From: Pycnococcus provasolii
Lineage: Eukaryota > Chlorophyta > Pseudoscourfieldiophyceae > Pseudoscourfieldiales > Pycnococcaceae
DNA: 64,000 nt
Direction: 5' to 3'
NCBI GenBank assembly: GCA_938743325.2
Contig: OW568861.1
Span: 1,116,001 to 1,180,000 of the forward strand
Below are positions 18,857 to 59,853 of the stretch, piece after piece. The translations under genes and the position numbers were made by a program. The notes beneath the pieces were generated by a model. That model did not search any database. It was given only the letters and a program-made list of their open reading frames with translations, and was not told where the DNA came from. How positions within the stretch are numbered: position 1 is the stretch's first letter; each line of letters opens with the position of its first letter.

Positions 18857-19560
18857 ATCTTCGCAAGCAAAAGTGTTATCCGAAATGCATTATCCGCCCG
18901 GAAAGCGATCCCAAAAACAGAAACAAAAAAAGAGCACAAATAAAATGGGATTGTGATGTGCGGTGGAGGAGCGCGGCAGGAAAACCCCTAAAGTTCGAAT
19001 AAAAACCCAAACCCCTAAACGAGAGGAGAGATTTCTAACGCCCAGACTAACGCCCTTGTATAATACGTGCGGGATCCACCTGTTGCTGGCGTGGTACAGG
19101 GACAGGGGAGCAATCCAACCAAATATTTGGTAGTGCAAGCGCTCCCAGGTCTCTCCCCTCAGGACTCTCAGGGGGGGCTCGGGAAGGATTCCGGGCTGGC
19201 TGGGAAGACAACCCGCTAACCCTAACCCTAACCCTAACCCTAACCCTAACAGACTTCCCTTGGCCTTGCTGTCTGTGTTGTCTCGCTCGTGTTTTGTGTT
19301 TTGTGTTTTGTGTTTTGTGTTGTTGTGTTGTGTCGTGTACTTAGTGCGTGCTTTGCTCTTGCAGTTACCAACGTGCTTTGCATTCTGACCTATGTATCAG
19401 TACTGCATAAGTAAGTTTTGCTTATTCTATTTAAAAGTGTAGTTTCATTTTCTTACCCAATGAATTTATTGATATACCCTCACAAGAAGAAGAAAAAATC
19501 ATAAATAATTCCTTTCAACGCGCTAATTTATTTACGACGACAAGTCTGCTCGTCGCCTCT
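18857..19560. other. Intergenic region with telomere-type repeats and a TGTTT minisatellite
   Basis: This 704 bp stretch is upstream of LPAAT (minus) and downstream of the scramblase gene. It contains AACCCCTAAA-like motifs at 18981-19020, a telomere-type array at 19216-19250 and a (gtgttttgt)n run at about 19290-19325. No credible ORF. Confidence 0.6.
19216..19250. repeat. Interstitial telomere-type array (CCCTAA)n
   Basis: There are nearly six perfect CCCTAA units. It lies 360 bp upstream of the LPAAT start, so the TTAGGG strand is the coding strand of that gene. It is internal to gene-dense DNA and so not a chromosome end in this assembly. Confidence 0.9.
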
Positions 19561-20430
19561 CTAACCATCCTCCTGCTCAACCAACGTGATGTCGATCAAA
19601 AGCGAAGTCGCAAGCAAAGTCGCCTTGTGCGCAGGCGTCGCCATATCAGGGTACTTGACGGCGTAGATGTTGCGCTTCGTGCAGCACTCGTTCTTGAAGC
19701 CGGCAAACAAATCACTGATCTGAGCGTCGCCATACTTCTCGCGCGTCGACGGGTGACGGACATAGTACGGAACGCGACAGCACTTACCTCTCACGCCGTC
19801 GCACTTGCACTGCACACAAATCCCGCCCACGCACGTGTCCGGGCGGACGAGGTATGCGACCGTCTTCGTGTCAGCCTCAAGCACCTGAAACTTAGGAACG
19901 AAGAGGCACATATCGCACAGGTACTCTGTACGGCCAATGAGGTTTCCGTTGCGGTCCTTTGCGTCGAGGTAGGGCAGATAACAGCAGCACGGGCACCGAA
20001 CAATTCCGTTATTCGTGATTGCCACGACGGCGTTCTGGCCGCACGTACCTTCCTTCTCGAAGGTGTACACAGCCTGGCCAGCCTTGTTGGCAGCGGGCGT
20101 GTCGACGCTCGGCGGCACGTCTTCGAGCACGCGGTACGTCGTCTTCCTGGAACCTGGCGCGAAGAACGAGCAGCATCGTCCGCAGTAAGGGGCTTCTTCT
20201 TGGATCCAGACACCTGTTGGCGCGACGGTATCGAAGTCCTGAATCTGGTGTTGGTACGCGTGCACGGTCCAGTGAATGTTCGGCTGCAAACAGCACGGCC
20301 TGCAGCACTCGCTGGTGAGCTGCCTAACCATAACTCCCTCGGACTGTATGAGTTGTTCCGCGTTCGTGGTTTGTCCCATGAGCGGCTGCTGCTGCGGCGG
20401 TTGCATCATCACGGCCATCTGCGTCGCCAT
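19561..20430 (-). CDS. Phospholipid scramblase family protein
   Basis: The protein is 289 residues from ATG 20430. After a Gln/Pro/Met-rich N-terminus (typical of PLSCR proteins) it shows the scramblase domain with many Cys: CCRPCCLQPNIHWTVHAYQ, RCPCCCYLPYLDAKDRNGN and GKCCRVPYYVRHPSTREKYGD, ending with the characteristic hydrophobic C-terminal helix (ATLLATSLLIDITLVE). Scramblases are Ca2+-responsive membrane proteins linked to transbilayer lipid movement, though the enzymatic role of the PLSCR family is debated. Length is usual for the family. Its start is divergent from the PIG-T gene across a 548 bp region. The sequence just 5' of the ATG contains taaggttagtag, also found before the deaminase gene start. 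Confidence 0.85.
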   Translation of the reverse strand: MATQMAVMMQPPQQQPLMGQTTNAEQLIQSEGVMVRQLTSECCRPCCLQPNIHWTVHAYQHQIQDFDTVAPTGVWIQEEAPYCGRCCSFFAPGSRKTTYRVLEDVPPSVDTPAANKAGQAVYTFEKEGTCGQNAVVAITNNGIVRCPCCCYLPYLDAKDRNGNLIGRTEYLCDMCLFVPKFQVLEADTKTVAYLVRPDTCVGGICVQCKCDGVRGKCCRVPYYVRHPSTREKYGDAQISDLFAGFKNECCTKRNIYAVKYPDMATPAHKATLLATSLLIDITLVEQEDG

Positions 20431-20978
20431 AGCTTAGAATCTACTAACCTTACCTAAGGTACAGGTATCAGAATAAAATGCACGGCGGCCCGTGGACCTG
20501 CACACACCACCAAGTACAGCACGTGCAACAACTTACTTGCACAGGGCACAAGGTCAGTGCACACCGCTGCAACCCACCCTAACCTTACCACCCAGGACAA
20601 GGCTGCCCTACCCGGTACTTTACCATAGACTACCCACGGGTGGTAGGAAGTAAGGTGAAGACATCAAAGCAAGGTATGGCAGTGACGGACCCGTGGGACC
20701 CGTCACCATATACCTTTAGGCCTTCCTAGTACTTACCCACGTTTCCGCAGGGCATGCAAGGTGCTTGGCAGTTGGCACCTACCTTTATCGGTCTGATGAG
20801 CATCCCATCAGACCGTTCAGCGATACTTTACAAATCATCATCGATAGACTCTTAGTTGGGAGAAGGTTAGGGTGTTAGGGTGTTAGGGTTAGGGTTAGGG
20901 TTAGGGTTAGGGTTACGCCACCCGTTTTTGTTTTTGTTTTTGTTTTTGTTTTTGATTTTGTTTTTCCCATTCTCAGGT
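20431..20978. other. Divergent promoter region between scramblase and PIG-T
   Basis: It is rich in CCTTACC/CTAACC motifs at 20440-20600. It then has the telomere-type array 20866-20914 and a (tttttg)n tract at 20926-20966, directly before the PIG-T ATG. No RNA gene seen. Confidence 0.55.
20866..20914. repeat. Interstitial telomere-type array (TTAGGG)n
   Basis: Seven TTAGGG units, the first two spaced by an extra GTG, end 65 bp before the PIG-T start codon. Read as protein it gives a spurious Leu-Gly repeat, which shows why the long open frame beginning at 20880 overstates the gene. Confidence 0.9.
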
Positions 20979-23228
20979 ATGCGCGATACGTGTGGTGGCG
21001 TCAGTCACCGCCGTCGCAGTCGCAGTCACCGTCTTGTCAGCGTCGGCGTCGGCGTCGGCGTCGGTGTCAGCGTCCCTGGTGGTCTGCATGTGTTTCCTCG
21101 TAATCACACTCATGTTTGTCGTGTTGAAAAGCGTTCCTGTGGATCATTGTATTTGTATGTTCTCGTCACTTGTGTCGTGCTTTTGGGGAGGAGCACGGTC
21201 TCGGGGGGGTTGGCATCGGCAGCAGCATCAGCATCATCATCATCATCAGAATCTGAACCGTCACATGATTCCGTAATGGCTTCTCATGGACTGGGATCGG
21301 CTGGACTGGGTTGCTCATGGCACGAAGAGTTATTGATACACCCTCTTGTTTCGTCAGCGTCGTCAGCGTCATCTTCATCCACCGTGTTTGCGCGCTTTCA
21401 CTTCTCCGCAAGCCAATCCGCCTCCTCCTCCTCCTCCTCAAGCGCTAGCAGCACGAAAGAAAACAGCAACGAGTGCATGCCCATGGACGTACTCCAGATA
21501 CTCACGTACAGCAACGCCACGGAATTTCGTACGTCGCTCGCGTCGGGAAGATGGACACAACCACTCGGAGACGCCGCCGACGTTGACCCCGTCGCGAACG
21601 CGGCGCTCGCAGACGCAGCGCGACCACGAGGTTCCGAACTGTACGCCAAGTTTGACGACGGCAATAATACATATAACAACGAACGATTCGCTTCGCTCGC
21701 GCACGCTCTCGGAGGCATGCTCAGCGCGGACTTTGGAACCGCAGCGGCGACGCACGGAGAACCACGCATCATGGTTGCACCCGCCACGTTTCACATCGGC
21801 AACCAAACCAAACGTAACGCCAATTGCAAGTACGGTGCAGTGCCGAGCGAGTTTGCGTGCACGGAAAATCTATCGCGAGCTCTTCGACTGTTGCCTGGCG
21901 GCGGCGCGCACGTCGCGGGACTGCGCACGCTGCTGCGACCAAGGGAATTCGTCGCGGCGGACGCATACGGCGTTCACCTCGCTGCGCGCAAGGAACAAGG
22001 CCGCATTCACGTATCCGTCACATACGACGTCGTGCTTTCGAACGTCAAAGGTTGGAACGACAAAGATGACGACCTTGCTAGCCTGCTGCGTGCGGCATTC
22101 AACGCAAAGGATATCCCCAAGGCGCCTTCTACCGCACAAACAAGCGTCATCTGGATGCACGGTGTCGCTCATGCGCTCAACGACACATCGCTGACGCCCA
22201 ACAAGCACCTCGACGCCTCTGTCCATCACACGATAATACCGGCACTTCGTGCATACCGCAGCATCGTTCCCGCTTCGCGGAATACCGCAAGAGGATGGGG
22301 TGGAAGCTTGGCACGCCCGTTCGCTTCCCTGGGACATGCTGGCGTTGGACGATCGGCGCTCGCCATTGACGTCGTGCGCGAAGTCAAATACACAGGCGGT
22401 AAAGCGGTCATTACGTGCTTCCATCAGCGCCTTCCTTCAGCCGTGCAGCCTTACTTTCACACGCTCGACGCTCGCGCACTTCTCAAGAACGGCTCCGAGG
22501 CGCCCGCTGACACCGCAAAGCTTACGGAGATATCGGCGACGCCTGTTCCTCCCGCTCGTGGCGGAGGGTGGACACTCGAGTTCTGCCTGCGACTAACCTC
22601 GCCATGGTCCACCGCGCGCGTGACACTCGACGTCGAGGAAAGGCACCTGCACATCGACGAACATCCTCCGGACGCAAATCGAGGCGTGGACTTACCTGCT
22701 GCAGCGTACTGCAGCGTGGTTGATGACGATGACGCCACGACGCAAAGAACCGATGCACCCACGCCTCTAATGGCTCTGCTTCAATCTCGCACCGGCGGCC
22801 CGTTGTGCCATGGCCACTACGCCGACAACGGCGTTCTGGTGTTCCTACCCGTCCCCGACATGTCGATGCCATACAATGTCATTTGCTTCACCTCAACCGT
22901 TGCGAGCATGTTCGTGACAATGGCATTGTCCACACTCTTGAAGCGTCGAGAAGAAATTAAGCTTGCGGAGCAGCGGAGAAAGCTGGGGTTGCGTGAACCC
23001 AGCTCGATGACGGTTGTTGCTCGCAAGCTTATTCGCCAGGTGGTGCGTTTGATAAGGGGCAACGAGGCGGCGTCAAAATTGACGAAGCCAGACGAGCTGG
23101 TAAAGATTAGCAAGCTTGACGGGAAACTGCCGCTCCTTTTTATCGGACTTGGTGGCGCGTACGTCGCCTCCGTTGGCGTGGACAAGGCTGAGGGTGAGCT
23201 TAGGCGCGTATTCCGCAAATTTGGATGA
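20979..23228 (+). CDS. PIGT: GPI transamidase subunit PIG-T / Gpi16
   Basis: The protein is 749 residues from ATG 20979, the first ATG after the telomere-type repeats. The N-terminal 180 residues are Ser-rich with a hydrophobic signal/anchor-like stretch (SLYLYVLVTCVVLLG). The lumenal body has N-glycosylation sequons and ends with the family hallmark near residue 625, PVPDMSMPYNVICFTSTVAS, a single TM (to about 655) and a basic cytosolic tail. PIG-T is the ER-lumenal, single-TM scaffold of the GPI transamidase complex, which attaches GPI anchors to proteins. The frame stays open from 20880 through repeat DNA, but this is not expected to be translated. The extended basic C-tail is longer than in animals. 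Together with LPAAT, scramblase and S1P lyase it forms a run of four membrane-lipid genes. Confidence 0.85.
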   Translation: MRDTCGGVSHRRRSRSHRLVSVGVGVGVGVSVPGGLHVFPRNHTHVCRVEKRSCGSLYLYVLVTCVVLLGRSTVSGGLASAAASASSSSSESEPSHDSVMASHGLGSAGLGCSWHEELLIHPLVSSASSASSSSTVFARFHFSASQSASSSSSSSASSTKENSNECMPMDVLQILTYSNATEFRTSLASGRWTQPLGDAADVDPVANAALADAARPRGSELYAKFDDGNNTYNNERFASLAHALGGMLSADFGTAAATHGEPRIMVAPATFHIGNQTKRNANCKYGAVPSEFACTENLSRALRLLPGGGAHVAGLRTLLRPREFVAADAYGVHLAARKEQGRIHVSVTYDVVLSNVKGWNDKDDDLASLLRAAFNAKDIPKAPSTAQTSVIWMHGVAHALNDTSLTPNKHLDASVHHTIIPALRAYRSIVPASRNTARGWGGSLARPFASLGHAGVGRSALAIDVVREVKYTGGKAVITCFHQRLPSAVQPYFHTLDARALLKNGSEAPADTAKLTEISATPVPPARGGGWTLEFCLRLTSPWSTARVTLDVEERHLHIDEHPPDANRGVDLPAAAYCSVVDDDDATTQRTDAPTPLMALLQSRTGGPLCHGHYADNGVLVFLPVPDMSMPYNVICFTSTVASMFVTMALSTLLKRREEIKLAEQRRKLGLREPSSMTVVARKLIRQVVRLIRGNEAASKLTKPDELVKISKLDGKLPLLFIGLGGAYVASVGVDKAEGELRRVFRKFG

Positions 23229-23253
23229 ATTTGTTATTGACGGTTGTACATTA

Positions 23254-25119
23254 TTACACTCCCAGAACTCCATCTTGATAGTGAATGAGCAGATCACCCA
23301 CCGCACCTCTGTCAGGAAAGGTCCCGCCGAGACCATACACGCGCGCCTTGCCGTCGCTCGCCACCCCCTTCTCCTTCATGCGCCGAGCCTCTTCCGCACA
23401 CTCCGCAAGGTCCGACGCGAGCTTACGCGCCGTCTCCAAGCTGTGCGCGCCAGTGAAGCACACGTGGAAAGAGAGAGGTTTCTGCAAGGCATTCAGCACC
23501 CACCCTCGCGCCGTGAGCAGGTCCATGACGATGAGTGAGTCGATGCCGCCGTTGGGAGCCTTCGTATCGGTTCCCACCGCCACGACTCCCATTGCGGGGA
23601 TGCCCATGATGCAGAGTCCATCGATGCGGCTGACGGCATCAACGAGCACATCGCGAGCCTGCAGAATGCCCTCCGCCGACGCTCGCAGGCCACTTCGCCC
23701 GAGGCAGATGAGGCTTGCCCACGCGGTGGCGACAACACCACCATTCCGACTTCCCGGCAGAGTCGGCGAGATGTACAAGCCGCCACTCCACTCCGTCACC
23801 GCCGTGTACTGAAACTTGCGCATCTCCTTCGAGCGGTACAGGAGAACGCTAGTTCCCTTCTGGCCCATGCCAAACTTGTGCGTGTCGGCGGAAATGGAAG
23901 TCACGCCCGGAACGCGGAAGTCGAACGTCGGAACGAGATCCGGTCGAAGTTCTTGCACAAGGGGCAGGCAGAATCCGCCGAGGCACGAGTCGACGTGCAG
24001 CGGTATTCCGCGTCGTTTGCAAAGATCTGCGATGGCCTGCACGTCGTCGACGACGCCGTGCGGGTAGCACGGTGCCGATGCGACAACAAGCATAGTGCGC
24101 CTGCTGATGCGTCGACGCACCGCCGCGGCGGTGAGCCTCATCGTGCTCGGGTCCACCTCAAGAACGACGATGCGCACGTTGAGCCAGCTCGCCGCCTTCC
24201 AGAACGCGGCGTGCGCGCTCCTCGCGACGATAATTTCCGGGACGTCCGTGGCTGCTCGAAAGTGCGGCGAAGCGTACGACGCTCCTGCATACCAAGGGGC
24301 TTGGCGATGGCACCACGCGTCTCTCGCCGCCTTGCAAGCGAGCAGGATGGATTCCGTGCCTCCGCTCGTGACGCATCCGCACACACCTTCCGTCGTTTGT
24401 GGGTCAAGCAGGCTTCTCGCCATGGCGATGATTTCTTGTTCCATGCGCGGGATGGATGGGAAGGAGTCTGCGTGCAGCGGGTTAGCGTGCGCATAGATTG
24501 CGTAAACTTCGCTGAGCATGTTGAGGTGTTCCGTCGTTGCCATGTAAACGGTTCCAGACATTTTGCTTTCTCCGTCACGCCACTGCGTGTCATCCTTTGC
24601 TCGCTTTTGTGCGCGCTTGAGAACGATCGCCGTGGTTGTCGACTCTTCGGGCAGGTGCGTGACGAGTGGGTCGCGATCGAGTGGTTCAGACACCGCATCA
24701 GACGCCGCATCAGACGCACTGTTATTTTCTGCTAAGGGTACCGCTGCGTTATCTTCAAGGGGTGCAGGCGGCGACGCTTTAGGCAACTCCTCTGAGGAAG
24801 ACGACCGCTTTTCACTATTATTAGAACTGGAACTGGAATGACTCTCGCGTGCCACACGTTGAATTTGCTCACGTGCATAGGATCGTATGCACGGACACTC
24901 TTTCAATATACCTGCCAAGAAAGAAACCAATCCCACATCCCGCGACGCCTTTGCACATGAATAACAAGCCCTATAGACTTTCAGGGTCACAAGGGTAGAC
25001 ACAACACTAGAGGAAGCTATTGCGAAAAGAACACCATGATACTGAGTGGGAGTGTGAGGCATGTGAGGTATATTCTGGAGAGAATCCCAAAACAAAGACG
25101 ACACGGATGCCGACGTCAT
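23254..25119 (-). CDS. Sphingosine-1-phosphate lyase (PLP-dependent)
   Basis: The protein is 621 residues from ATG 25119; the frame is open to 25635 but that part overlaps the RCC1-like gene. An N-terminal TM anchor (GVLFAIASSSVVSTLVTLKVY) and a Ser/Glu/Ala-rich linker precede the group II decarboxylase-type PLP fold: SGTVYMATTEHLNMLSEVY, TSGGTESILLACKAAR, HVDSCLGGF, and SADTHKFGMGQKG with the PLP-binding Lys at about residue 415. S1P lyase cleaves sphingosine-1-phosphate in the ER membrane to phosphoethanolamine and a fatty aldehyde, the exit step of sphingolipid breakdown. The Ser/Glu linker (about 95-155) is longer than in animal enzymes. Its 3' end faces that of PIG-T with only 25 bp between stops. 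Confidence 0.92.
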   Translation of the reverse strand: MTSASVSSLFWDSLQNIPHMPHTPTQYHGVLFAIASSSVVSTLVTLKVYRACYSCAKASRDVGLVSFLAGILKECPCIRSYAREQIQRVARESHSSSSSNNSEKRSSSSEELPKASPPAPLEDNAAVPLAENNSASDAASDAVSEPLDRDPLVTHLPEESTTTAIVLKRAQKRAKDDTQWRDGESKMSGTVYMATTEHLNMLSEVYAIYAHANPLHADSFPSIPRMEQEIIAMARSLLDPQTTEGVCGCVTSGGTESILLACKAARDAWCHRQAPWYAGASYASPHFRAATDVPEIIVARSAHAAFWKAASWLNVRIVVLEVDPSTMRLTAAAVRRRISRRTMLVVASAPCYPHGVVDDVQAIADLCKRRGIPLHVDSCLGGFCLPLVQELRPDLVPTFDFRVPGVTSISADTHKFGMGQKGTSVLLYRSKEMRKFQYTAVTEWSGGLYISPTLPGSRNGGVVATAWASLICLGRSGLRASAEGILQARDVLVDAVSRIDGLCIMGIPAMGVVAVGTDTKAPNGGIDSLIVMDLLTARGWVLNALQKPLSFHVCFTGAHSLETARKLASDLAECAEEARRMKEKGVASDGKARVYGLGGTFPDRGAVGDLLIHYQDGVLGV

Positions 25120-25495
25120 CCTACTACCCTGGGGCTGGATGGAGAATGAAAACCAAGATGTGAGAAATGGTTTGAGGAAGGGAAAACGGGGGCACGTGTC
25201 ACTGGGACCCGTGGAAGAGAAGAGGGGCACGGAAAACCCTAAACCCAAGTAGCTAACCCTAACCCTAACCAGTGACACCTCGCGGTAGGAAGTACCGTCG
25301 GCAAGGCGTTGGCATCGCCTATGCCAACCTGCTGAGCCTCCCTCCATTCGCACGGCCATCTTGCTCGCCTCCGTTTTGGACACGTTCGCGTCGGCACCCG
25401 TCATCTGCTGATTTGGGTCGAACTCGCTCGCGAGGACCCCGCCCTTCCGGAACCTCGCACACTTGTTTCTTTCACTCGTCATGGCGTCCTGAGCC
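25120..25495. other. Divergent intergenic region with telomere-type motifs
   Basis: This 376 bp stretch lies between the S1P lyase start (minus) and the RCC1-like gene start (plus). It contains aaaaccctaaaccc at 25233-25246 and ctaaccctaaccctaacc at 25253-25270, about 120-150 bp upstream of the lyase ATG. A four-codon upstream ORF (ATG 25481) ends two bases before the RCC1-like ATG at 25496. Confidence 0.6.
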
Positions 25496-26464
25496 ATGAC
25501 ACTCTCGTCTCTCGCGTACGATGCCCTGCGCGTCTTCGTCAACTGGCAGCGCGAACGGAGGTTACGCAAGGTGCGTGAGCGGAAACAAGCCGCGCGAACG
25601 TCTAACGAACTGCTCGCAGCAGGTGGTAGCGTCATCTATGGAGGTCACTCGTTAGCGATACGAGTCGACGGCAGTATCGCGTGCTGGGGCGTCAACGGCT
25701 TCGGCCAAGCCCCTCCCGACGGCGTTCCGGGTGACTTCGTCGCAATCGCTGCGGGTGATGAGCACTCTTTGGCACTACGAGTCGACGGCAGTATCGCGTG
25801 TTGGGGAGACAACGAGAACGGCCAAGCCCCTCCCGCTGGCGTTCCGGGTGACTTCGTCGCAATTGCCGCAGGTGGTGATCACTCTTTGGCGCTACGAGTC
25901 GACGGCAGTATCGCGTGCTGGGGACTGAACGAGAACGGCGAAGCCCCTCCCGCTGGCGTTCCGGGCAACTTCGTCGCAATCGCTGCGGGTGCAGCGCACT
26001 CTTTGGCGCTACGAGTCGACGGCAGTGTCGCGTGTTGGGGACTGAACGGCAACGGCCAAGCCCCTCCCGACGGCGTTACGGGCAACTTCGTCGCAATTGC
26101 CGCAGGTGGGTATCACTCTTTGGCACTACGAGTCGACGGCAGTGTCGCGTGTTGGGGACTGAACGGCAACGGCCAAGCCCCTCCCGACGGCGTCCCGGGT
26201 GACTTCATGGCGATCGCTGCCGGAACTGGGTACTCTTTGGCGCTTCGAGTCGACGGCAGTATCGCGTGTTGGGAAAACAACGATCAAGGCCAGGCACCTC
26301 CCGACGGCGTTACGGGCGACTTCGTCGCAATCGCTGCCGATATTTGGCACTCCTTGGCGCTTCGGCACGACGGCAGTATCGCGTGCTGGGGAAATAACTA
26401 CGGCGGTGAAGCACCTCCCGCTGGCGTCCCTGGTCCATTCAGGGCTACGCAGGCGGACTTGTAA
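25496..26464 (+). CDS. Seven-repeat RCC1-like beta-propeller protein
   Basis: The protein is 322 residues from ATG 25496. After a 50-residue basic leader come seven tandem repeats of about 39 residues, each following the pattern HSLALRVDGSIACWG-x4-GQAPP-x-GVPGDFVAIAAG. Seven repeats would close a single RCC1-type propeller, so the protein appears complete. The repeats are much more alike than in classical RCC1 (about 50-60 residues per blade) and resemble the short RCC1/alpha-tubulin-suppressor repeats common in bacterial and giant-virus proteins. They lack the loops that classical RCC1 uses for Ran exchange, so a guanine-exchange role should not be assumed. Likely a binding protein; function unknown. 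Confidence 0.8.
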   Translation: MTLSSLAYDALRVFVNWQRERRLRKVRERKQAARTSNELLAAGGSVIYGGHSLAIRVDGSIACWGVNGFGQAPPDGVPGDFVAIAAGDEHSLALRVDGSIACWGDNENGQAPPAGVPGDFVAIAAGGDHSLALRVDGSIACWGLNENGEAPPAGVPGNFVAIAAGAAHSLALRVDGSVACWGLNGNGQAPPDGVTGNFVAIAAGGYHSLALRVDGSVACWGLNGNGQAPPDGVPGDFMAIAAGTGYSLALRVDGSIACWENNDQGQAPPDGVTGDFVAIAADIWHSLALRHDGSIACWGNNYGGEAPPAGVPGPFRATQADL

Positions 26465-26511
26465 AAAAAGGCTTAGTTTTAGTTGTAAAGTTACACTCCT
26501 ACGGAAACATG

Positions 26512-27807
26512 TCACGGCTCTGTTTGTTGTTGCACTTGAACGGTCCACGTGTCAATTGCTTGTTCGATTTCAAGAAGGCGATCCTCGGAGATGAAAGCGG
26601 CACGCGCAGCACTCTTGGATATGTTGGCGAGCTCGTCCAGAGATAAGTCGAACTGATCCGAGCACAGCGCGAACACCTCAGTGAGGTGCCTCTCGGCGTC
26701 GGACACGTACCCCGGATCGTCGCTATTCAAGCTGATGTTGCACCCGCTGTCAATCAGGCGTCGCAGAGGGTGCTCGGCCAGCGAGTTTATGCACCGCAAG
26801 CGAGCATTACTCAACGGACAAACCGTCAAATGCACCTGCTTTTCCACGACGGCTTCCAAGAGACGTCCAGATGGGTCAGCCACACAGCGATAGCCATGAT
26901 CGATGCGCTCAGGATCAATCAGCTTGAGCGCACGCTCCATACCGCTCCAGTCACCGTCAGAACCGTCCGTGAGCTCGCCCGCGTGGCAGCACTTTCGAAA
27001 CCCGAGCGACTCTGCCTTGTGATACAGTGGCGCGTACTGTTCAGGCCACGACGCAACGTAGTCGCTTGATGTGCCGACACCCACGACTCGCCCGACGTAC
27101 GGAGCCATGGCTTGCAGGCACGCCTCTGCACTTCTTACACCACGATTGCGTTGCCAGCTGAAAATCATATTCGCAGTGATGTGAGCACCTGCCGGCGTTG
27201 AGAGTTCGCGCGACGCTGTGTCAATTGCTTCCTCGATACCGTCCACCATGGCACCCGCCGCGATCCCTCTCTCCATGTGCGGCTCAGGGTCGAAGAACAT
27301 CTCGACGTGTCTCACTTCGTCGTCAGCTGCGCGCCTCATGTACGCGAGTGTGATGTCATGGAAGTCTCTCGCAGTTTGCAGTTTCTCCATGCCTTTGTCA
27401 TACACGCCTAAGAAGTCACCGAGTGACATAAAGTTCGCGCCTGTATTTTCCGGTCGGGCGATGGTCCCCTCGAGGTGCACGTGCAGTTCCACCTTAGGTA
27501 ACGCCATAATGTGTATTTGTGCATTGCATCCGTCACCAGGTTGTTTTTTTGCATTCGCACATTGTAACTCCACGGATGATCGGAACTTACCAAGACCAGT
27601 AGCTCGACCACGAAAAGGAACCCTCCTAAACGAACTTGTTCTGTTCATGTTGTTCTTGTTCTGTTCTTGTTCTCGCCCGAGTGTAATTTCTACAAGACTC
27701 GCCCGGCTACGCCGTTCTCGCCCGAGTGCCAAGTCATGCAGGCCAACGTTGGCGCGAAACGTTTCCTTGATGAGTTTGATTCGTTCGGGACAGGCAGAAG
27801 GTGACAT
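26512..27807 (-). CDS. Adenosine/adenine deaminase family protein, possible internal deletion
   Basis: The protein is 431 residues from ATG 27807. The catalytic part begins MALPKVELHVHLEG at about residue 100, with the HxH zinc ligands. It then shows HAGE (about 277), IDHGYR, VCPLSNARLR, and LNSDDPGY (about 362) with the Asp ligand. The pattern (FFDPEPHMERG, LTVCPLSN, SDDPGY) is closer to the adenine deaminase/Aah1 branch than to classical ADA; the reaction is hydrolytic deamination of an adenine base or nucleoside. The first 100 residues are basic and lack homology that I recognise; they may be a targeting leader or untranslated, with the Met at about residue 101 as an alternative start. Between HLEG and LGDFL only about 15 residues remain where relatives have about 30. 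Confidence 0.8.
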   Translation of the reverse strand: MSPSACPERIKLIKETFRANVGLHDLALGRERRSRASLVEITLGREQEQNKNNMNRTSSFRRVPFRGRATGLGKFRSSVELQCANAKKQPGDGCNAQIHIMALPKVELHVHLEGTIARPENTGANFMSLGDFLGVYDKGMEKLQTARDFHDITLAYMRRAADDEVRHVEMFFDPEPHMERGIAAGAMVDGIEEAIDTASRELSTPAGAHITANMIFSWQRNRGVRSAEACLQAMAPYVGRVVGVGTSSDYVASWPEQYAPLYHKAESLGFRKCCHAGELTDGSDGDWSGMERALKLIDPERIDHGYRCVADPSGRLLEAVVEKQVHLTVCPLSNARLRCINSLAEHPLRRLIDSGCNISLNSDDPGYVSDAERHLTEVFALCSDQFDLSLDELANISKSAARAAFISEDRLLEIEQAIDTWTVQVQQQTEP

Positions 27808-37589: not shown

Positions 37590-40715
<3,126 letters not shown>

Positions 40716-41547
40716 GGACTTGTAACCCATCGATTTTTTTGATTTTCGTTTTACAACACGCTGTATTATACATTGAGACTTGTATTTTGAAGATGATTTT
40801 CATGTGAAATCTTGCCATCTTTCTCGCTCGCCATCGCGGACATCGAGAGCTGTACATACAGTAGAATACTACACGCACATGTCAACATAAGCTCACAACG
40901 AACGGCCTCAGCGCTGTGGCCTCAGACGACTGCTCTTGCTTGGTTTTCGTCCTCCTAACCCTACCCCTAACCCTAACCGCGATGGGACAGATCACAGATG
41001 GAAACCCTAACCCAGGTGGGACAGATGCTCCGGACAGCCGGAGGGGGACAGACAGACGTGGCAACCTCTCGCGAGGGGCAAGCAACCTAAGCTTAAGGGC
41101 CAGCGAGGGAAGTGAAGTGAAGTGAAGTGAAGTGAAGTGAGTGAAGTGAGGGAGTGAAGTGAGGCTCTGTCCAGACATTTAGCTCGCGTTTTCCTGGATT
41201 GATTGTCCGGACGTTTCATGGCCATGATGGCCATCACTCGGACCTGTTGTTTGTGCGGAAATTATCATTCCCCCCGGGCGTCCCCGGGTGTTTCTTTCAG
41301 GGGTTGTAGTAGTATGCACACGTCGTCGGCGTCGGCGTCGGCGTCGTCGGCGTCGGCGTCGTCGTCGTCGTGTGAGAATTGGGCTCCTGATGGGGCGGCG
41401 GCGTGGTTTGGGTTTGGGTTAGCGGCCGCGGCCGCGTCCGCTTTTGTGTCCGCGGCCGCGTCCTTCCAGGCGCGCCTTTCCCGTCGTCGTACCTATGAAA
41501 TAAACTCTCTGCTGAAAAAGAAGACTGGTGATAACCTTAAAGGTAGG
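40716..41547. other. Intergenic/5' region with telomere-type motifs and a GAAGT minisatellite
   Basis: It follows the RUVBL1 stop and precedes the preferred start of the kelch-RING gene. It has ctaaccctacccctaaccctaacc at 40955-40978, aaaccctaaccc at 41002-41013, and a (gaagt)n minisatellite at about 41110-41160. From 41218 the sequence is open in the kelch-RING frame (ATG 41218, Ser/Ala-rich), so the 41218-41547 part could be coding. Confidence 0.55.
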
Positions 41548-46059: not shown

Positions 46060-46457
46060 AGGGGAGCCTGGCTCGAGCTTGCCAAGGCTACTTGTCCAGG
46101 CGTGCGAGAAGAACAATATATATATATGTAAAGTGAAATAAGTGTACAGTACCTGTAAATAAAACTATACATAATGTACATACTAAAAGAAACGTGAAGG
46201 TGCCATGTAGCTTCTCGAGACGCACGGTCGGTTTGGGTCGGGTCAGCGTCTGAACAAAATCACACGGACAAAATTAAAGGTTCCACGCCGTATGCCCCGT
46301 ATTCTGATTAGGGTTTTAGGGTGGTGGTTCCCCATTTCCTATTTGCATTGTGCTGGTTTGGATTTGGTTTTGCCCCCTCCCCTCCCCTCAAATCATTTCA
46401 ATTCATTTCGGATTCCCCATAAGGAGCTAAGTAAGTGTGTCGTCGTCGTCGTCATTG
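46060..46457. other. Intergenic region upstream of V-ATPase d
   Basis: This 398 bp stretch contains a (TA)n stretch at 46119-46128 after the RING gene and ttagggttttaggg at 46309-46322, about 135 bp before the V-ATPase d start. Immediately 5' is an aagtaagtgtgt and a run of tcg codons. Nothing else is seen. Confidence 0.5.
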
Positions 46458-47699
46458 ATGAACTACAACGCAAGTTTCGGGTACGTGGATGCTCGTGTTC
46501 GAGGCCATTGGGGCGCACTGCTGACGGCGCGTGACTACGCATCCCTATGCGAGTGTCGATCCGTGGAAGATGTCAAGATGCAGCTCGCGTCATCAGCTTC
46601 TGGGGGGGGAGGAGGACAAGGCGCGTCGTCGTCGGCGGCGCAGTCGGGTGGAGCGCGTGGCGACTACGCGCGGTATCTGAGCGCCGAGCCAAGTCCGCTA
46701 AGAGCATCGAGGCTTGTTGAGCTGTGCACGCAGAGCCTCGTCGACGAGTGGTCCGACATGTCCGTGAACGCTGAGGGCACGCTCGCCACGTTTCTCGACT
46801 ACTGCACGCACGGGTACATGATTGACAACGTCATTCTAATCGCTTCCAGCCACATTCAGCAAAGTCGACACGGGGGTTTGGGCGGGTCGCGGATGGCATC
46901 GGCAACGTTGTCGTCGACGTCACATTCAACGCAAGCTGTGATGGCGAAGTGCCACCCTCTCGGACTTTTCGAGGGTATGACGAGCTTGGTCGTCGCGTCG
47001 AATGCTTCCGACCTCTATCGCACGGTACTCGTAGACACCCCGCTTGCGCCATACTTCCGCGAGACGATCGCTTCTGCTGAGGACTTCGATGAGGCAAATC
47101 TGGAGCTGCTGCGCAACTCTCTCTACAAGGCGTACCTCGAGTCCTTTCATAACTTCTGTGTGACGAAGCTGGGAGGAGCCACGTCGGAGGTGATGCAGGC
47201 GTTGCTAAGCTTTGAGGCTGACCGCCGTTCCATCGCGATCACCATGAACGCACTTGGAATGGCAGAAGTTAGCCGAGATGATCGCGCCTCTCTTTACGTG
47301 TCAGGCTTCGGGGCGTTGTACCCGCAGGGTGTCGCGAAGCTCGCAGCTTGCATGGATATGGACGCCGTGCGATCGGCTGTCGAATCCACAGCGCCACAGT
47401 ACATTTCCATGCTCGCGAGCGCAACGACAGGCGGCTGGGGAAGCAGCGAGGATCGCCGAGGCTGTGGTGGAGCGAACGTTGCCGCTCACGAGTCGGCGAG
47501 GCAGGCGCATGCCATTGAGAGGTCTTTCAATGCAGAAGAGGGGAGAAGATGTACGCTCGCCTTTGAGCAGCAGTTCCACTTTGCCGTTTTCTATGCCTAC
47601 TTGAAGTTGAAGGAGCAGGAACTGCGCAATCTGCTGTGGGTTTGTACGTGTATAGAAAATCGGACGTACGATCGTGCGCAAGAAGGGTTGATTTTGTAA
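46458..47699 (+). CDS. V-type H+-ATPase subunit d (V0 sector)
   Basis: The protein is 413 residues from ATG 46458; the frame extends to a GTG at 46437, not used. The start NYNASFGYVDARVRGHWGALLTARDYASLCEC aligns with the conserved N-terminus of ATP6V0D/Vma6, followed by VDEWSDMSVNAEGTLATFLDYCTHGYMIDNV, CHPLGLF, TPLAPYF, and the C-terminal EQQFHFAVFYAYLKLKEQELRNLLWVCTCIENR. Subunit d is the peripheral V0 subunit that couples the central rotor stalk to the c-ring, and so takes part in acidification of vacuoles, endosomes or the contractile vacuole. Relative to the family (about 350 residues) it has Gly/Ser-rich insertions near residues 45-75, 135-150 and 320-345. The first would lie on a peripheral loop. 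Confidence 0.92.
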   Translation: MNYNASFGYVDARVRGHWGALLTARDYASLCECRSVEDVKMQLASSASGGGGGQGASSSAAQSGGARGDYARYLSAEPSPLRASRLVELCTQSLVDEWSDMSVNAEGTLATFLDYCTHGYMIDNVILIASSHIQQSRHGGLGGSRMASATLSSTSHSTQAVMAKCHPLGLFEGMTSLVVASNASDLYRTVLVDTPLAPYFRETIASAEDFDEANLELLRNSLYKAYLESFHNFCVTKLGGATSEVMQALLSFEADRRSIAITMNALGMAEVSRDDRASLYVSGFGALYPQGVAKLAACMDMDAVRSAVESTAPQYISMLASATTGGWGSSEDRRGCGGANVAAHESARQAHAIERSFNAEEGRRCTLAFEQQFHFAVFYAYLKLKEQELRNLLWVCTCIENRTYDRAQEGLIL

Positions 47700-47969
47700 A
47701 GTTTAATTAGAACAGAGACTGCTCATTCAGGAATGGAATGTCCTTTATTTCGTCCAACGGTCGTCCATTCACACCATTCCCATTCACTACTCAGCCCATT
47801 CAATGGTGTGAGGCATAGTGCGTTTGTACATGGCACTAGAGGTTGTTGACACGCGTCGCACACGAGTCGCCACAGACGCATGCGTTTCGGCGGGCGTGGC
47901 GGCAAAAGGGTTTCTATAGACTTGTATTTTCTAGTTAAAATATTGTCGTAAAAAGTAACTCCAAAAGAA

Positions 47970-53900: not shown

Positions 53901-55976
53901 CGAAAGAGTTTCAACCTCAAAGATGAGATTGGATGCTGCTTCTTCTTCATTCACCGTAAGCATGAAATCTTTATATTGCCCCGGCGAGCACGAATCGTAC
54001 TCAAAATGATGGATACTCATCTCTGTGCACTGAATATCACAGTCCTGAGCGCAAATGTGCGTCAGCTCCTTACAGTCGCTCTTTGGAGGATTGATGTCGG
54101 CGTATACTTCGTACTCAGCGCACTTCTCGCCGCCACTAAGGCCAAAGTAGTGCCGACCTGGCTCGGCGTGACATACTTGCGCTGTGTGATTTTTGATGCC
54201 ATCACTCGCGATGGCACGTTGATATGGAGGAGAAAGCTTCAGCGGTGGAAATATGTGTCGCGTGAGATAGTAAAGGTCGCCAGTCGCGACAACGACATTG
54301 AACTCCACATCCACTGTCTCACCGGCTTCGTATGCAGACGAACCACCACCAGCGCCTCGGCGGAAGTAGTACATGGGCGTATCCGAAGACGGCGCGGCGG
54401 TTGTAGAAGTTTCGTAGCCCACCGTCGGGTAGCCCGCCGACGGCGGAGCTGCGACATCGCCGTACGTGTCAGGCCCAACTTGCACATAGTGAAACACAAA
54501 TTGGCCTGGGCACACGAATCCGGCAACGTGGCCGCCAGGAGGTACCTCGCTGTGGATGAAGTACGGAACGAGCCGAAAGCTCTTCCCCTCCATCGACGTG
54601 TACACGCTCACGACATATTCTCCCTGCTTAAGATCCCACTTGTTGATCGTTATGGTATACTCGCCGTTTACGCTGTACTCGCTCTTGTCCTCCGTGTGGC
54701 GGTCTGTGGGAATGGCTCCGTCTCTGTAGAGGTAGAGCCCGAACGCGCGCGGGTCGATCGCACCCGTCGTCTGGTCCTCAAGGTAGATGACCATGTTGTC
54801 GTTGCAGTCATAATCGTCGACATGTACACGGAAGTCCATGTAGGAAAATGGCACCCCCTTGCCATACATGAAGTGGTTGTGCTCGAGCTCCGGCAGGTGC
54901 ATAACGCTGTCAACTTGGCCGTCGCCAATCGCTTGCGTGGTTTCCGACTTCAGGCATACCGAATTGACAAGGCCGCGGGGGTACGTCAGCGTGACGGTGT
55001 ACGGCACACACCCCGCGGACGTCTTGACTGCGACGTAGTACGAGTGTCCCGCGACGACCCAGCACACGTCGACAACGCCCTCCTCGCCTGGCGCAATGCT
55101 TTCGTAAGGTGGCCTAAGTCTTAGTGGTGCTGTGTCCGCGTGCTGCATGACGAGCAGCGCTGCGTTGGCCCCTTTTTTGCTTGCTTTCACCACCACTTGC
55201 GCGAGCGCTTCGCCACCGGCTGGCGCCTCGAACTTGTGGTAGACGAGCTGCTCCTCGCACGCCTCACCGTCGCGCTCCTCGTACTCCACAAGCGGCGCGA
55301 TGACACCTCGCGCGAGAACACGGAACGTCGTCGCCTCGTCGCCGCAGCGCACGGAAACGTAGTACGTTTTCAACTTGACGTCGTAGTAGCTCACCTCCAG
55401 CGTGTACAGCCGATTTTTTGCTTCGGAGGCTACCATACCGGACTTCCGGTCTGGCGCAATCGCATCGACGAACAGGTGAACGGACAGCGCGTCCGTCCTG
55501 TACCCTTCCAGCTCAGGTTTTAAGTCTTCGACTTCGAACAGCCAGTTGTTGTTTAGCATCTCCTTGCTGTTCACCTCGAAGGAGAAGTCGAGCCACGATT
55601 TTGGGAGGCACGTAATGTCGCCGGTCCACTCGTTGGGCATGATTGGTTGGTGGGCGTTCGGCCCACCTGCTGCGTGCACGCCGACATGTGCTCCTAGGTG
55701 GTTAAGCGGCGCCAGTAGGAGCAGGAGCACATACATGCACATATGGCTTAGCATCAACAAAGGAGCAGCTCCTCCTCCTCCTCCTAAAGGCATGTTTCCT
55801 AAGGTACCACCCACAAGGAGGTTGTTGTGTCTTCTGCAAGAAACACGTTGTCGTCTTCTGTACTTGTAGAAGTACGGCGACAAGAAGAAGCCTATCGTGC
55901 CACCGTCACCGTCACCGTGACCACCACCACTGGCACCATTGTCATTGTCGTGCAAGCAAGTTGTGTTGGCCGCCAT
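47970..55976 (-). CDS. Polycystin-2-type TRP channel with a six-module repeated ectodomain, two exons
   Basis: Joining 55976..52419 and 52310..47970 gives 2,632 residues. Six homologous modules of about 240-290 residues begin near residues 125, 365, 655, 924, 1175 and 1439. Each starts H-F-x-Y-x-S-C-x-P, then DF, EVE, P-x-R-x-T-E and VRCGD blocks, and a second half with GYVCPGDFIYH, PPIKLxPPY and HYVGLxGGxxCADYEVY. They resemble PPC-like beta-sandwiches. A TM near 1727 follows, then a polycystin domain: S1 (about 1869), an extracellular loop with Cys, and S2-S6 (about 2085-2340) ending in a pore and FFLLLNILLAILMDTYAII. The channel part matches PKD2-family cation channels of cilia and the plasma membrane. 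The tail is basic. The start ATG 55976 is the first; a TTG lies 24 bp upstream. Confidence 0.85.
52311..52418 (-). other. Spliceosomal intron, 108 bp, in the polycystin gene
   Basis: The exon ends GAG-GTG-AAG before a GTGCGC donor (weak), and the intron ends tttccag before GAC-TTT-GTG. The phase is 0. Splicing rebuilds the repeat signature at its expected place (SCAPREVK joined to DFVLYVSEA), matching the other modules (SCEPHEFVDFILP, SCSPGQYKDFMLT). Without splicing both sides end at stops. Confidence 0.85.
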
Positions 55977-56644
55977 CAAACACACAATAAGTGCCCGCAA
56001 GCACAGTAAATGCGGCCTATAAAAACGACGTCGTATAAAAAAATGGGTTTTAAGGGCTGTGAAGGGTTTTAAGGGCGGGTTTTTAAGGGCGGGTTTTTAA
56101 GGGCCACCCCACGTGGGGAAAAGGCGGGTCCCCCGGCAGCCCGGGTCCTTGAATGAAAGGGCGGTTTGACGCCCGGCCGGAGGGGGAGATCTCCCCAGAC
56201 GTCACTCAGATGTCACTGAGACGTCACTCAAAAGAAAGACTGGCTGGTGGGAAAATGTGCTGTGTTTTTTTAATTTTTTTATTTTTTTTTATTTTTTTTT
56301 CTGAATTTATTTCCATAGATTCCCGTTCTTTTGGGTACCACTGGAACATATTTTTTAAAGGTACTAGGTGGGGGACGGCTGTACCGTACTTCCTAGTCAG
56401 GATTTCCTCGTAAGGTCTCCGTCCTTGCGCTCCTTCCTTGCGCTCCGGCCTGGTCTACTTTTTACCTCCTTGTCTCCGGACGTCTTTCTTTGCACACGTC
56501 ACAACTCCTCTTTCAATTCATGAGATGCAAACGTCATTCTCTTTTCCTTCGAGTTTTTTTGTTTGTTTTTTGGTTTTTGTCTCCTGACACTTGGTTGGTG
56601 CTCCTCCACAATTAAAAAAAAAATAAAGTCAAAAAATCCTGAAA

Positions 56645-56832
56645 ATTTTGTGTTTTTGGCTTCGAAGGCACTTCCAAGCCAAAAATGACTGGCCTGACAC
56701 TTCACTTCGAAGCGTCAACTTCGTAGACGGTAGTTTAGGTCGGGTGTCGCACTTCGAAGCCAAAAACACAAAAATGAGACACCCGCCGACCGAAACTACC
56801 GCATCGAAGTTGACGCTTCGAAGTGAAGTGTT
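56645..56832. repeat. Overlapping double inverted repeat (foldback element)
   Basis: Two interleaved palindromes. The outer-left arm 56645-56667 (attttgtgtttttggcttcg and on) is repeated inverted at 56752-56774. The arm 56696-56749 (cacttcacttcgaagcgtca and on) is repeated inverted, with few mismatches, at 56778-56832. The loop of the second palindrome therefore holds the right arm of the first. A further short hairpin, ttggcttcgaagg/cttccaagccaa, lies at 56656-56682. Confidence 0.8.
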
Positions 56833-56985
56833 AGCGCAATCATTTTTTTTGTGGTTGGTGGATCGTTGCTTGATTTTGACATTTTGACGATCCCATACTG
56901 GGGATACCTACTAAAATAAGGGATTCGACAAGCCTACTGTGTATACAGTGCGCAATCGGCATCATGCAAGGAGGCTTAGGCTGGC

Positions 56986-57630
56986 TCAGACCAAGGGGAA
57001 ATAACACTGGGGAGTTCACTCCCCCCTTTTCGGGAGGACGAGCTGTCCGGTAGGGTTTTGCTTTTTCCCGACCAACCGCATGGGTTCCTCCCTCCCCCCT
57101 CCCCCGACTCACCCCATCTCATGGCAGTGCGCGCAGCGCGGCGAGGCACGCGCCGTGAGGCATGCGCGGCGCGTAGCGACGCCCATGCGCGTCATGTTGA
57201 GCTCGTTCGGTCAGGTAGGAGTATTCCTACACAGTGACACCGCCCATGCTCAATCGGCGCGCTTACGCGACGCGCGCATGGGGAGCGAGCTACGCGCGCG
57301 TAGGCCTACGCGGGCATGCGTGCCATCTTCGGCGAGATGTTTGGGTGTGTTGCGGAGATGTTTTCGTTAGTTTGAAAGTTGAATGCGAAAGTATAAGCAC
57401 TTCCTAAAAAAGTTACAGAGCCAGAAATGTACACATTAAGACCCGATTTTGAGTTACGCACCATTGTTTGCGCCAGACGCGCCAGCGGACGCCATTGCGA
57501 CCAATTGCCCCGTTCAGACTGAAAACCCCTACTCCCCAAGGTCTCCAAAAACAAACCCCTACGGGACAGCTCAGCTCCTCGAAGGAATAGTGGGAGTGAA
57601 CTCCCCATTGTTATTTCCCCTTGCTCAGAC
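56986..57630. mobile_element. Candidate MITE-like element with ~85-bp imperfect terminal inverted repeats
   Basis: The left arm, about 56986-57066, and the right arm, about 57540-57630, are inverted copies. The core aaggggaaataacaNtgggg-agttcactccc matches with a single mismatch; the inner parts (gagctgtcc-ggtagggttttg) match less well. The 645 bp interior has no protein-like ORF but contains GC-rich nested inverted repeats (57164-57191 against 57271-57302) and the palindrome gtagga-gtat-tcctac at 57215-57230. No clear target-site duplication is seen, so mobility is inferred only from the terminal inverted repeats. Confidence 0.55.
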
Positions 57631-57703
57631 AAGCTAAATTTTTTGGATATTCCTGTGAGGATTGGGGTTTTATTCGCGAGTACCTGTCACGAGTTTGACA
57701 ATT

Positions 57704-59125
57704 TTACCCAGAAAACAAACTCATCAAGCTCGTCAATAAATTCGACTCCTCCTCACTATTTCCATCGTCGATCCCCGCACGCTTCGCCACCTCGTGCGCA
57801 ATGGCGGCGGGAGTCGTACAGCCGCCAACGCATATGCAATCGCCACGCGCGAGCGCGAGCGCCGCGAATACACCGCTACCTGACGCGGCATCGCCACCCA
57901 TCGGCAGCGGAGTTGGCGGCAAGTTAAGATTCAGCTCAAGTCCGAGCACGCCAAGACGAGCAGTCACGTGCACCTCGAAAGAGCTCGACATCTCCTCTCC
58001 CGCGAAAAGACCCGCAGCTACCGTCACGCCGCCCTCCGTAACGCGCGCTACCACCTGCGCCTCCGTCACACCCTCGGATGCCAGCTCGAAATTCGACATG
58101 GTTCCACTAAAGACGACCGGCCCTCCACCCGCAACAGCTACGTCCACCACAAGCGTTTCCATCTCCACGCGAAATGACGTGGGGTTCAAAATTTCGAGCT
58201 CGACAGCCATTCCCATCTGCTCGCCGGGCATACTCGGCAAGACTGGCGCCAAACCGCACACCCAAACGGTTGGCGACGACGCCAGCTGTCCGACATCGCT
58301 CGTTCCGGGGCAAGTTGTCAGGTCGTCAGAGTCGCCAATTGCGAGCTTGTCAGTCGCCTCCGCCTCAAGCGCCGCCAAGTCCTCTCCCTGAGCCTCGAGC
58401 GCCTCCATCGTCGCCTCCGCATCGCGGTTGATTTCCTCGAGAATAGCCTCCATCGCCATCTTCGCTGTGCCCTCCATAGTGAGATCAGACGTTGGTGGCA
58501 ACAGCGGTACGGTCATCACCACCACCACCGGCGCTAAGGATTTGCCGAAGACGTTCAGTTTGACTTGCACGCGTGCAATTGCCGTGTTGGGCGTTCCATT
58601 GGCATATGTACTCAGCATTGTGGAAGTAGCTGGAGACGACGTGTGCATGTCACAGCCGATGTTGACGTCGACGTCACCTTTCTTCATCTCAAATGGCTCG
58701 CCAACGCACGTCACGACACGACGCGCTTCGTCGTCAAACACGGCGTCGTATGTTTCTGCGTTTTTCCGTCCGACTGCAAGTACGGTGGGTATTTCTTTGA
58801 ACTGCGCGGTGTCGTGCTCAGCAAGCGCGACGTCCCAAGATTCTGCATTCACCGTGAGACGGTTTGGGTTGTTCATGCGAAGACGCATGTAGAGCGGCGC
58901 GGATCCGGTTGTCCACGCAGTATATTCAAGCGTTCGTGCGCATGACGTGAGGTCTTGCGGTGCCTCCAGGGTGTTTTCCGTCCCTACGTGTCCGCACCCG
59001 TTAACGTAGCAGATGGCAACGTCGGTGATCGGCTTGGGCCAATACAGCGCAGCGAGCGTCGCGAGCGTCGCAATGAGCGTGACGAGCGGGCCTAGGCAGC
59101 AGCACCAGAAGAACGGCGAGCACAT
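57704..59125 (-). CDS. Single-TM protein with two LEA2/WHy-like beta domains
   Basis: The protein is 473 residues from ATG 59125. It starts with a Cys-rich N-terminus (MCSPFFWCCCLGPLVTLIA) and a TM at about residues 10-32, then a lumenal or extracellular part. Two segments have the LEA_2/NDR1-HIN1-like pattern, with the NPN/NPT-turn followed by amphipathic strands: NPNRLTVNAESWDVALAE (about 85-102) and NPTSFRVEMETLVVDVAVAG (about 310-330). A helical Glu/Ala-rich linker separates them, and Cys pairs are scattered. The C-terminal part contains GDCICVGGCTTPAA. LEA2-type membrane proteins bind lipids or act in stress responses; the assignment is by pattern only and the function is not established. 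Confidence 0.55.
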   Translation of the reverse strand: MCSPFFWCCCLGPLVTLIATLATLAALYWPKPITDVAICYVNGCGHVGTENTLEAPQDLTSCARTLEYTAWTTGSAPLYMRLRMNNPNRLTVNAESWDVALAEHDTAQFKEIPTVLAVGRKNAETYDAVFDDEARRVVTCVGEPFEMKKGDVDVNIGCDMHTSSPATSTMLSTYANGTPNTAIARVQVKLNVFGKSLAPVVVVMTVPLLPPTSDLTMEGTAKMAMEAILEEINRDAEATMEALEAQGEDLAALEAEATDKLAIGDSDDLTTCPGTSDVGQLASSPTVWVCGLAPVLPSMPGEQMGMAVELEILNPTSFRVEMETLVVDVAVAGGGPVVFSGTMSNFELASEGVTEAQVVARVTEGGVTVAAGLFAGEEMSSSFEVHVTARLGVLGLELNLNLPPTPLPMGGDAASGSGVFAALALARGDCICVGGCTTPAAIAHEVAKRAGIDDGNSEEESNLLTSLMSLFSG

Positions 59126-59853
59126 CGAAGCTTATCACAGCTTAGAGGAAAAATACGATATAGAGAGGCACTAAGGAATACACACACTGAACGAATTCTG
59201 CATACACATGTGATGATGATTCACGCTGATTCAGGCTGATGAAGACTGATGAACGTAAGACGAAGATTCAAAAGCAGCTTCTCAGACACAGACGGTAGGG
59301 GGACCCGGAAAGGAGACGGACTACTGAGCCTCGTGAGGTGAGGTGAGGTGAGGTGAGGTGAGCGACATGAATGACGGGAACTCTGGTGAATCAGGTGACA
59401 GGTGACAGGTGACGTGGATGTCAGACATGCGAGCGAGGCATCCCAGAAAGTCTTTGAAGAAGAGGTGGGAAGTTCTCGAACAGCACGCCCCCTGCCCCTG
59501 GGGGAAAATCTCCCGGAAAAGCGCTAGCACACTAACCCTAACCCTAGCCCTAACCCTAACCCTAACGGGGGGAGCACCCTACGATAGCCCTACCCGGTAA
59601 CCCGAACCCGAACCCTGGCAGCCTGGCGTGAACCCAACAAAAACGGAACGCGAGACATTATTAATTATTATCGTAACCTTAGTACCCGGTAGTAGGGGAT
59701 GGATGGATCTGTGTGACTCGTCCTTATTCTACTGTACTGTAAGTTATTCGTCAATCCAAACCAACAAAACAGAACAAAACAAAACAAACAAAAGTACTGT
59801 AAGTTGATCTTATGAGTAGTTGATCTTAACTGATGTCAGTCAGTTTAGTTTTT
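59126..59853. other. Intergenic region with a GGTGA minisatellite and telomere-type array
   Basis: This 728 bp stretch is upstream of the LEA2-like gene (minus) and downstream of YchF. It has a (ggtga)n minisatellite at about 59336-59361, a telomere-type array at 59532-59566, and an aaaacaaaac microsatellite at 59765-59790. Short open frames only. Confidence 0.6.
59532..59566. repeat. Interstitial telomere-type array (CCCTAA)n with one CCCTAG
   Basis: Six units, one of them changed to CCCTAG. It lies about 407 bp upstream of the LEA2-like gene start, with TTAGGG on that gene's coding strand. Internal, like the arrays at 19216 and 20866. Confidence 0.9.

Follow-up and report, generated by a model that had tools for sequence, protein, structure and literature searches.

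Telomere-type repeats in the 5' flanks of genes of the chlorophyte Pycnococcus provasolii, possible counterparts of plant telo-boxes

Promoter motifs with the sequence of the telomere repeat, known as telo-boxes, and the TRB proteins are known for the most part from studies of land plants and other streptophytes. In plants, telo-boxes are found near the transcription start, mostly in the 5' UTR, and preferentially at genes for ribosomes and translation. In Arabidopsis, TRB proteins are found at the telo-boxes of promoters (PMC10167121, PMC13132431), and 9.7% of the genes carry a telo-box within 500 bp upstream (Gaspin et al. 2010, PMC3022908). According to the latter source, microsatellites in Arabidopsis and rice also lean to 5' flanks, and yeast Rap1 has promoter sites. 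The present report concerns CCCTAA/TTAGGG repeats in the prasinophyte green alga Pycnococcus provasolii CCAP190/2, in a stretch of 64,000 nucleotides of chromosome 1 (C1:1116001-1180000, "the window") and in the genome around it. These telomere-type repeats exceed chance and sit in the 5' flanks of genes. They are abundant genome-wide, and their location was established in a sample of about 1% of the genome. The explanation favored here, which has about an even chance of being right, is that they are telo-box-like promoter elements, docking sites for telobox-Myb proteins, at about one-third of the sampled genes.

How close is the resemblance to the described systems? Like plant telo-boxes, the Pycnococcus repeats are identical in sequence to the telomere repeat and favor 5' flanks over coding sequence and 3' regions, and in both cases microsatellites show the same 5' lean. 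They differ in that the repeat is mainly a TTAGGG hexamer, often in multi-unit arrays, in that a cluster is found within 600 bp at 33 of the 108 5' flanks sampled, and in having no site II partner (a companion feature of plant telo-boxes rather than part of their definition). The host, moreover, is a chlorophyte. Interstitial telomeric repair scars share with the Pycnococcus repeats the telomere unit, the scattered distribution and the occurrence in both orientations, but not the strong 5'-flank placement or the isolated single boxes. The yeast proteins Rap1 and Tbf1, the latter also with a promoter role, offer a parallel in that a telomere-binding protein makes use of a telomere-type motif in promoters, as the Pycnococcus candidate described below may do; the architecture of the yeast proteins is unlike that of this candidate. 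For Chlamydomonas, the absence of telo-boxes from ribosomal-protein genes was stated in 2011, as "data not shown" (PMC3212954). No earlier report of telomere-type promoter arrays in Pycnococcus was found in the part of the open-licence literature that was examined.

Abundance and identity of the repeat unit

The assembly of P. provasolii CCAP190/2 has been described as consisting of 44 chromosomal scaffolds together with the genomes of the mitochondrion and the plastid (PMC11130579), and the version searched has 46 contigs (C1, C2 and so on). The pattern (CCCTAA)3 gave 2,591 + 2,626 matches and (CCCTAA)4 gave 1,897 + 1,909, which resolve into 1,411 perfect maximal runs of at least three units, chromosome ends counted. 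When the pattern was read backward as a control, three units matched twice in the whole genome, compared to 5,217 times for the true repeat, and four units never. The window itself has 37 copies of CCCTAA/TTAGGG, while shuffled versions have a mean of 12.3 and at most 20.

Finer tests were made on 314 kb in two blocks, C1:996001-1260000 (264 kb, window included) and C20:200001-250000 (50 kb). In this sample, 113 genes were called by a codon-periodicity model on open frames, introns being ignored; a cluster was defined as two or more CCCTAA/TTAGGG units within 40 bp, and shuffles of intergenic DNA preserved dinucleotides. There are 31 clusters, one at a block edge and 30 intergenic (15 in divergent, 14 in tandem and one in convergent gaps), and the shuffle mean for intergenic clusters is 0.44. 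Among perfect intergenic arrays of at least 14 bp, 24 have the telomere hexamer as their unit, and no other hexamer unit accounts for more than 3. Along C1, the spread of the arrays listed was of borderline evenness (p=0.08).

The box sequence is that of the telomere repeat, CCCTAA being found both in the arrays and at the start of C1, which bears repeats at 567-758. The plant heptamer, as (CCCTAAA)3, has 36 matches, and since ten of these are at the starts of C7, C14 and C25, chromosome ends may mix hexamer and heptamer. This identity is what would be expected if the arrays were scars of repair: telomerase or telomere fragments would add TTAGGG at breaks in open, recombination-prone promoter chromatin, where the additions are tolerated and have no role. 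Such an origin was proposed for the Arabidopsis and rice motifs (PMC3022908), and in Pycnococcus it fits the dominance of the C1-start hexamer over all other hexamers, a match to the telomerase RNA-binding domain at C10:563906 and two features of location treated below, the lack of orientation bias in tandem gaps and the 5' lean of other microsatellites. On the other hand, the clusters are more 5'-biased than those microsatellites and peak at 100-300 bp, and isolated single boxes are in excess. The CCCCTAA variant, with 106 genome matches, also forms arrays of its own (on C1, C2, C19, C31, C37 and others), none of them less than 46 kb from a contig start among the matches listed, which cover the contig ends only in part; these arrays suggest local expansion of a variant box. 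Scars without a role are less likely than the favored explanation, but a serious rival to it. The initial annotation of the window had named them as an alternative to telo-boxes, and a scar origin agrees with the apparent presence of a telomerase and with a unit that is that of the C1 start. Where the arrays came from and what they do now are separate questions, and what is established is their location and their excess.

The isolated boxes deserve separate attention. Outside arrays, AA[AC]CCCTAA is found 12 times, as against 1.2 in shuffles, and ten of these boxes are within 600 bp of a start (four AAACCCTAA and six of the AACCCCTAA variant). The single AAACCCTA(A) box is thus in excess independently of the arrays, as is characteristic of plant telo-boxes, and a factor that reads the motif would be a more natural cause of this excess than multi-unit scars. 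The same boxes bear on the idea that the DNA structure of the arrays, as G-quadruplex or i-motif, shapes promoters or R-loops. A four-tract G-quadruplex pattern is present in 11 of the 31 clusters, but the other 20 do not have it, and single boxes are in excess even though they are unable to form a G-quadruplex alone. The structural explanation is very improbable.

Position relative to genes

Twenty-six of the 30 intergenic clusters precede a start codon by 600 bp or less. This zone makes up 54% of intergenic bases and would be expected to hold 16.1 of the clusters; of the remainder, one is in a 3'-only flank and three are elsewhere. The p values for this zone range from 0.0003 to 0.02 across six definitions of a cluster. 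Cluster density per 10 kb is 5.7 in the 600-bp zone next to start codons, 0.7 in 3'-only flanks and 1.2 elsewhere. The initial annotation had named equal frequency on the 3' side as a result that would refute it, and the repeats are not equally common there. Counted by flank, a cluster within 600 bp is present at 33 of the 108 5' flanks and at 10 of the 112 3' flanks. (The ten 3' flanks are all in tandem gaps, since the sole convergent cluster has no stop closer than 1,321 bp.) The clusters also peak at 100-300 bp upstream: 16 of 29 are in this interval, which holds 26% of the bases (p=0.0009) and, of the other microsatellites, 29% (p=0.009), although both this interval and the 600-bp zone were picked after inspection of the data. 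A partial check came from eight 3-kb loci on C1 that were picked for their arrays, being eight of the first 14 non-terminal arrays of at least four units listed on that chromosome: all nine of their clusters of at least three units are within 600 bp of a start, and seven of the nine are at 100-300 bp. (A two-unit cluster at 125-138 of locus L034, the left neighbor of which is out of view, was dropped; if it is counted, the figure becomes nine of ten within 600 bp.) Five promoters were examined in addition to these loci.

How specific is this placement? Several results weigh against a promoter function. Other perfect microsatellites are also start-proximal, 141 of 214 being within 600 bp, so that the 5' lean is partly general and location alone is no proof of function. 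When each cluster was assigned to its nearest gene end, 20 fell to a 5' and 10 to a 3' end, which is not significant (p=0.24), although this test is weak in tandem gaps because both ends are near. A 400-bp zone gave p values of only 0.03-0.21, and when clusters were randomized inside their own gaps the 100-300 bp peak had p values of 0.01-0.10. Clusters in tandem gaps have no orientation preference (8 vs 7). The site II motif (TGGGCY) is not enriched, with 0.61 per kb near clusters and 0.67 elsewhere when every gene of the sample is included. Clusters are absent from all three LHC loci, and a box of any kind is absent from one of the five promoters of ribosome-related genes. Three others of these five have a cluster and one a single variant box; the sample is small and at most suggestive, and is to be read beside the 33 of 108 found overall. 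(From their first residues and family matches, the five genes read as eS12, SNU13, eL30, uS11 and uS8.)

The general 5' lean invites the view that the arrays are the product of ordinary microsatellite drift, an abundant hexamer that has ended up where short repeats of this genome tend to be, in 5' flanks. The position of the other perfect repeats agrees with this, as does the deficit in convergent gaps (1/30, p=0.024), which is common to other repeats (12/140). Telomere-type clusters are, however, more start-proximal than the other microsatellites (26/30 vs 141/214, p=0.02), the telomere hexamer is at least eightfold over any other hexamer unit in the sample (24 vs at most 3), and the backward-read control has two genome matches against 5,217. 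The repeats do not behave as a neutral microsatellite would, with the abundance and location of other repeats, although their location overlaps in part with that of other repeats, and drift is very improbable as the explanation.

The suggestion in the initial annotation that the repeats act as telo-boxes gains some support from the enrichment in 5' flanks, the 100-300 bp peak, the excess of isolated boxes and a TRB-type protein encoded in the genome; it is weakened by the 5' bias of microsatellites, the missing orientation preference, the nearest-end result and the lack of site II enrichment.

Candidate reader proteins

When the genome was searched with a plant Myb domain of TRB type as the query, three places matched, the best on C37 and the others on C9 and C8. 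The C37 match (C37:387959-388132; L029:1483-2616) is in a predicted protein of 378 residues in which an N-terminal telobox Myb (VDLKDKWRN) is followed by a linker-histone domain (Linker_histone PF00538, 39.1 bits, cut-off 22.4). This is the order of domains in the plant TRB or single-Myb-histone proteins, although here it is found in a prasinophyte. Identity to an AtTRB1 sequence is 37% over a span that includes both domains, and among solved structures the best relatives are the Myb domains named TRF2 and TRF1. In plant TRB proteins the C-terminus is a coiled coil; here it looks charged and helix-like, and BLAST gave no significant match for it to that AtTRB1 sequence. By its predicted domains, then, the genome encodes a TRB-type protein, which may already be in a public database. 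The C9 copy (L030, C9:345317) has a TRB Myb half that runs into other sequence, with no linker-histone match. In the protein encoded at the C8 locus, the telobox Myb is near the C-terminal end. L030 has two CCCTAA units about 75 bp upstream of the ATG, and is the only one of the three Myb loci with such a pair.

How might such proteins act? Under the favored explanation, the arrays would first have been seeded, probably by telomerase or by insertion of telomere fragments at promoter breaks, which would explain why their unit is the telomere repeat, and a subset of the seeded arrays would then have been retained. Telobox-Myb proteins that also bind telomeres would dock on these promoter arrays, the candidates being the C37 TRB-type protein or the C8 telobox-Myb protein. 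Once bound, the protein would help to keep the promoter nucleosome-poor or bring in chromatin modifiers, both the effect on transcription and its sign being presumptive. It would act in either orientation, and in divergent promoters one array could serve two genes.

A TRB-type protein could also have a more specific consequence. Precedents for silencing are provided by the telo-boxes of Arabidopsis and, in Neurospora, by telomere repeats (PMC8788455), and the Pycnococcus arrays might recruit Polycomb repressive complex 2 via TRB, thereby marking genes for silencing. Besides the TRB-type protein, the genome has one match to an E(z)-type CXC domain, at C11:491803 (26.3 bits, cut-off 23.3, E 5e-4). 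But arrays are found at genes that appear housekeeping-like (RUVBL, V-ATPase d, ribosome-related) and at a large number of genes, which would not agree well with silencing alone. A Polycomb role is very improbable.

If the favored explanation holds, how old is the system? The origin of TRB proteins has been placed in Streptophyta (PMC10167121, PMC12616469), and the later of these papers allows for a greater age of the family and calls for an analysis of Chlorophyta (PMC12616469). A 2016 review, on the other hand, mentions proteins with this motif in red algae as well (PMC4924339), so that the published record is inconsistent with respect to a streptophyte origin. The predicted C37 protein and the promoter arrays hint that the plant telo-box theme is present in a chlorophyte, with a plausible candidate reader protein. 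It can be proposed, tentatively and with more doubt than confidence, that the reading of telomere-type promoter boxes by TRB is older than the chlorophyte-streptophyte split, with multi-unit arrays at about one-third of the genes and with telomere and promoter code co-evolving, the arrays keeping a match to the telomere repeat of the lineage because telomerase keeps supplying them. If this is true, a habit of gene control credited to land plants may be older than thought, and a chlorophyte with a TRB-type protein and hexamer arrays in many promoters makes the age of the system testable. The small, gene-dense genome of P. provasolii also suits the question of whether promoter boxes follow a changed telomere repeat, and since second-haplotype contigs have been deposited (PMC11130579), the species lends itself to separating tolerated scars from regulatory elements.

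Sites and genes in the window

The initial annotation had listed eight telomere-type sites in the window, all between genes. Each is present in the sequence, and each lies between genes on the refined gene calls. Their distances to start codons vary with the start codon chosen. A number of weaker copies can be added to those listed, at 18986 and 19013 (AACCCCTAA), 20577, 61383, 61469 and 61855.

The LPAAT gene (17588 to 18421 or 18856, minus strand) has two AACCCCTAA variant boxes upstream (18986..19018, plus strand), and then a (CTAACC)5.8 array (19216..19250, plus) that is 5' of LPAAT, at about 360 or 800 bp depending on the start, and 3' of a scramblase-like gene. In the divergent promoter between the scramblase-like gene (minus) and the PIG-T/Gpi16 gene (plus) there is a TTAGGG array of seven units, two with GTTAGGGT spacing (20866..20914, minus), about 65 or 560 bp from the PIG-T start. 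Three exact units form a CCCTAA cluster (25233..25270, plus) in another divergent promoter, between the S1P lyase-like gene (minus, refined start 25062) and the RCC1-like gene (plus, start 25496). (A first gene model, which had a coding-dominated background and put one array, 25237-25268, inside the upstream extension of the S1P lyase frame, was dropped.) A single TAACCCTAA box (38196..38206, plus) is in the divergent region between the 31677-37328 gene and RUVBL1. The former is the gene that the initial annotation had labeled EF-hand; on the present gene call the copy at 38201 is about 870 bp from it, and not about 600 bp as had been noted. The RUVBL gene (39345-40715, TIP49 domain) is preceded, at about 140-230 bp, by three exact AAACCCTAA telo-boxes of the plant type (39112..39205, plus).

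Further along, a CCCTAA cluster (40955..41013, plus) is 5' of the kelch-RING gene, at about 200 to 540 bp depending on the start. The pair of TTAGGG units formerly placed at 46309-46322 is confirmed at 46308..46321 (minus); the V-ATPase d-type gene (46458-47699, vATP-synt_AC39) has it in its 5' flank at a distance of about 136 bp. A second (CTAACC)5.8 array, with one unit mutated (59532..59566, plus), is in the 5' flank of the LEA2-like gene (57704-59125, minus), at about 410 bp, and two TTAGGGG variant boxes (61383..61474, minus) are in the region 5' of the 59854-60972 gene. As for the names of these genes, nine genes of the window were scanned for domains, and in seven the domains agree with the name: acyltransferase, Gpi16/PIG-T, PLP decarboxylase (S1P lyase), RCC1, TIP49 (RUVBL), kelch plus RING, and V-ATPase AC39, with the proviso that Pfam cannot separate S1P lyase from other decarboxylases, nor RUVBL1 from RUVBL2. 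The scramblase domain match, at 24.4 bits, is slightly below its cut-off of 25.4, and the LEA2-like gene had no Pfam match in the scan.

Other repeats were seen in passing. The window has a near-perfect 105-bp tandem duplication at 14405-14613 (99% matches), the reading frame of which resembles a WW domain in repeated form, and 117/234-bp tandem repeats at 25645-26392, within the RCC1-like gene, where one RCC1 repeat has been multiplied. Elsewhere in the genome, the light-harvesting family (PF00504) has 51 matches, one of them similar to LHCI proteins of plants and algae. On C31, two blocks of six light-harvesting genes (133072-142609 and 360395-366434), of mixed orientation and with identical domain scores, are possibly recent duplications. 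Finally, in the 314-kb sample, TACATA and GTACTGTA/TACAGTAC are commoner 3' of stop codons than in 5' flanks, and are possibly 3'-end processing signals.

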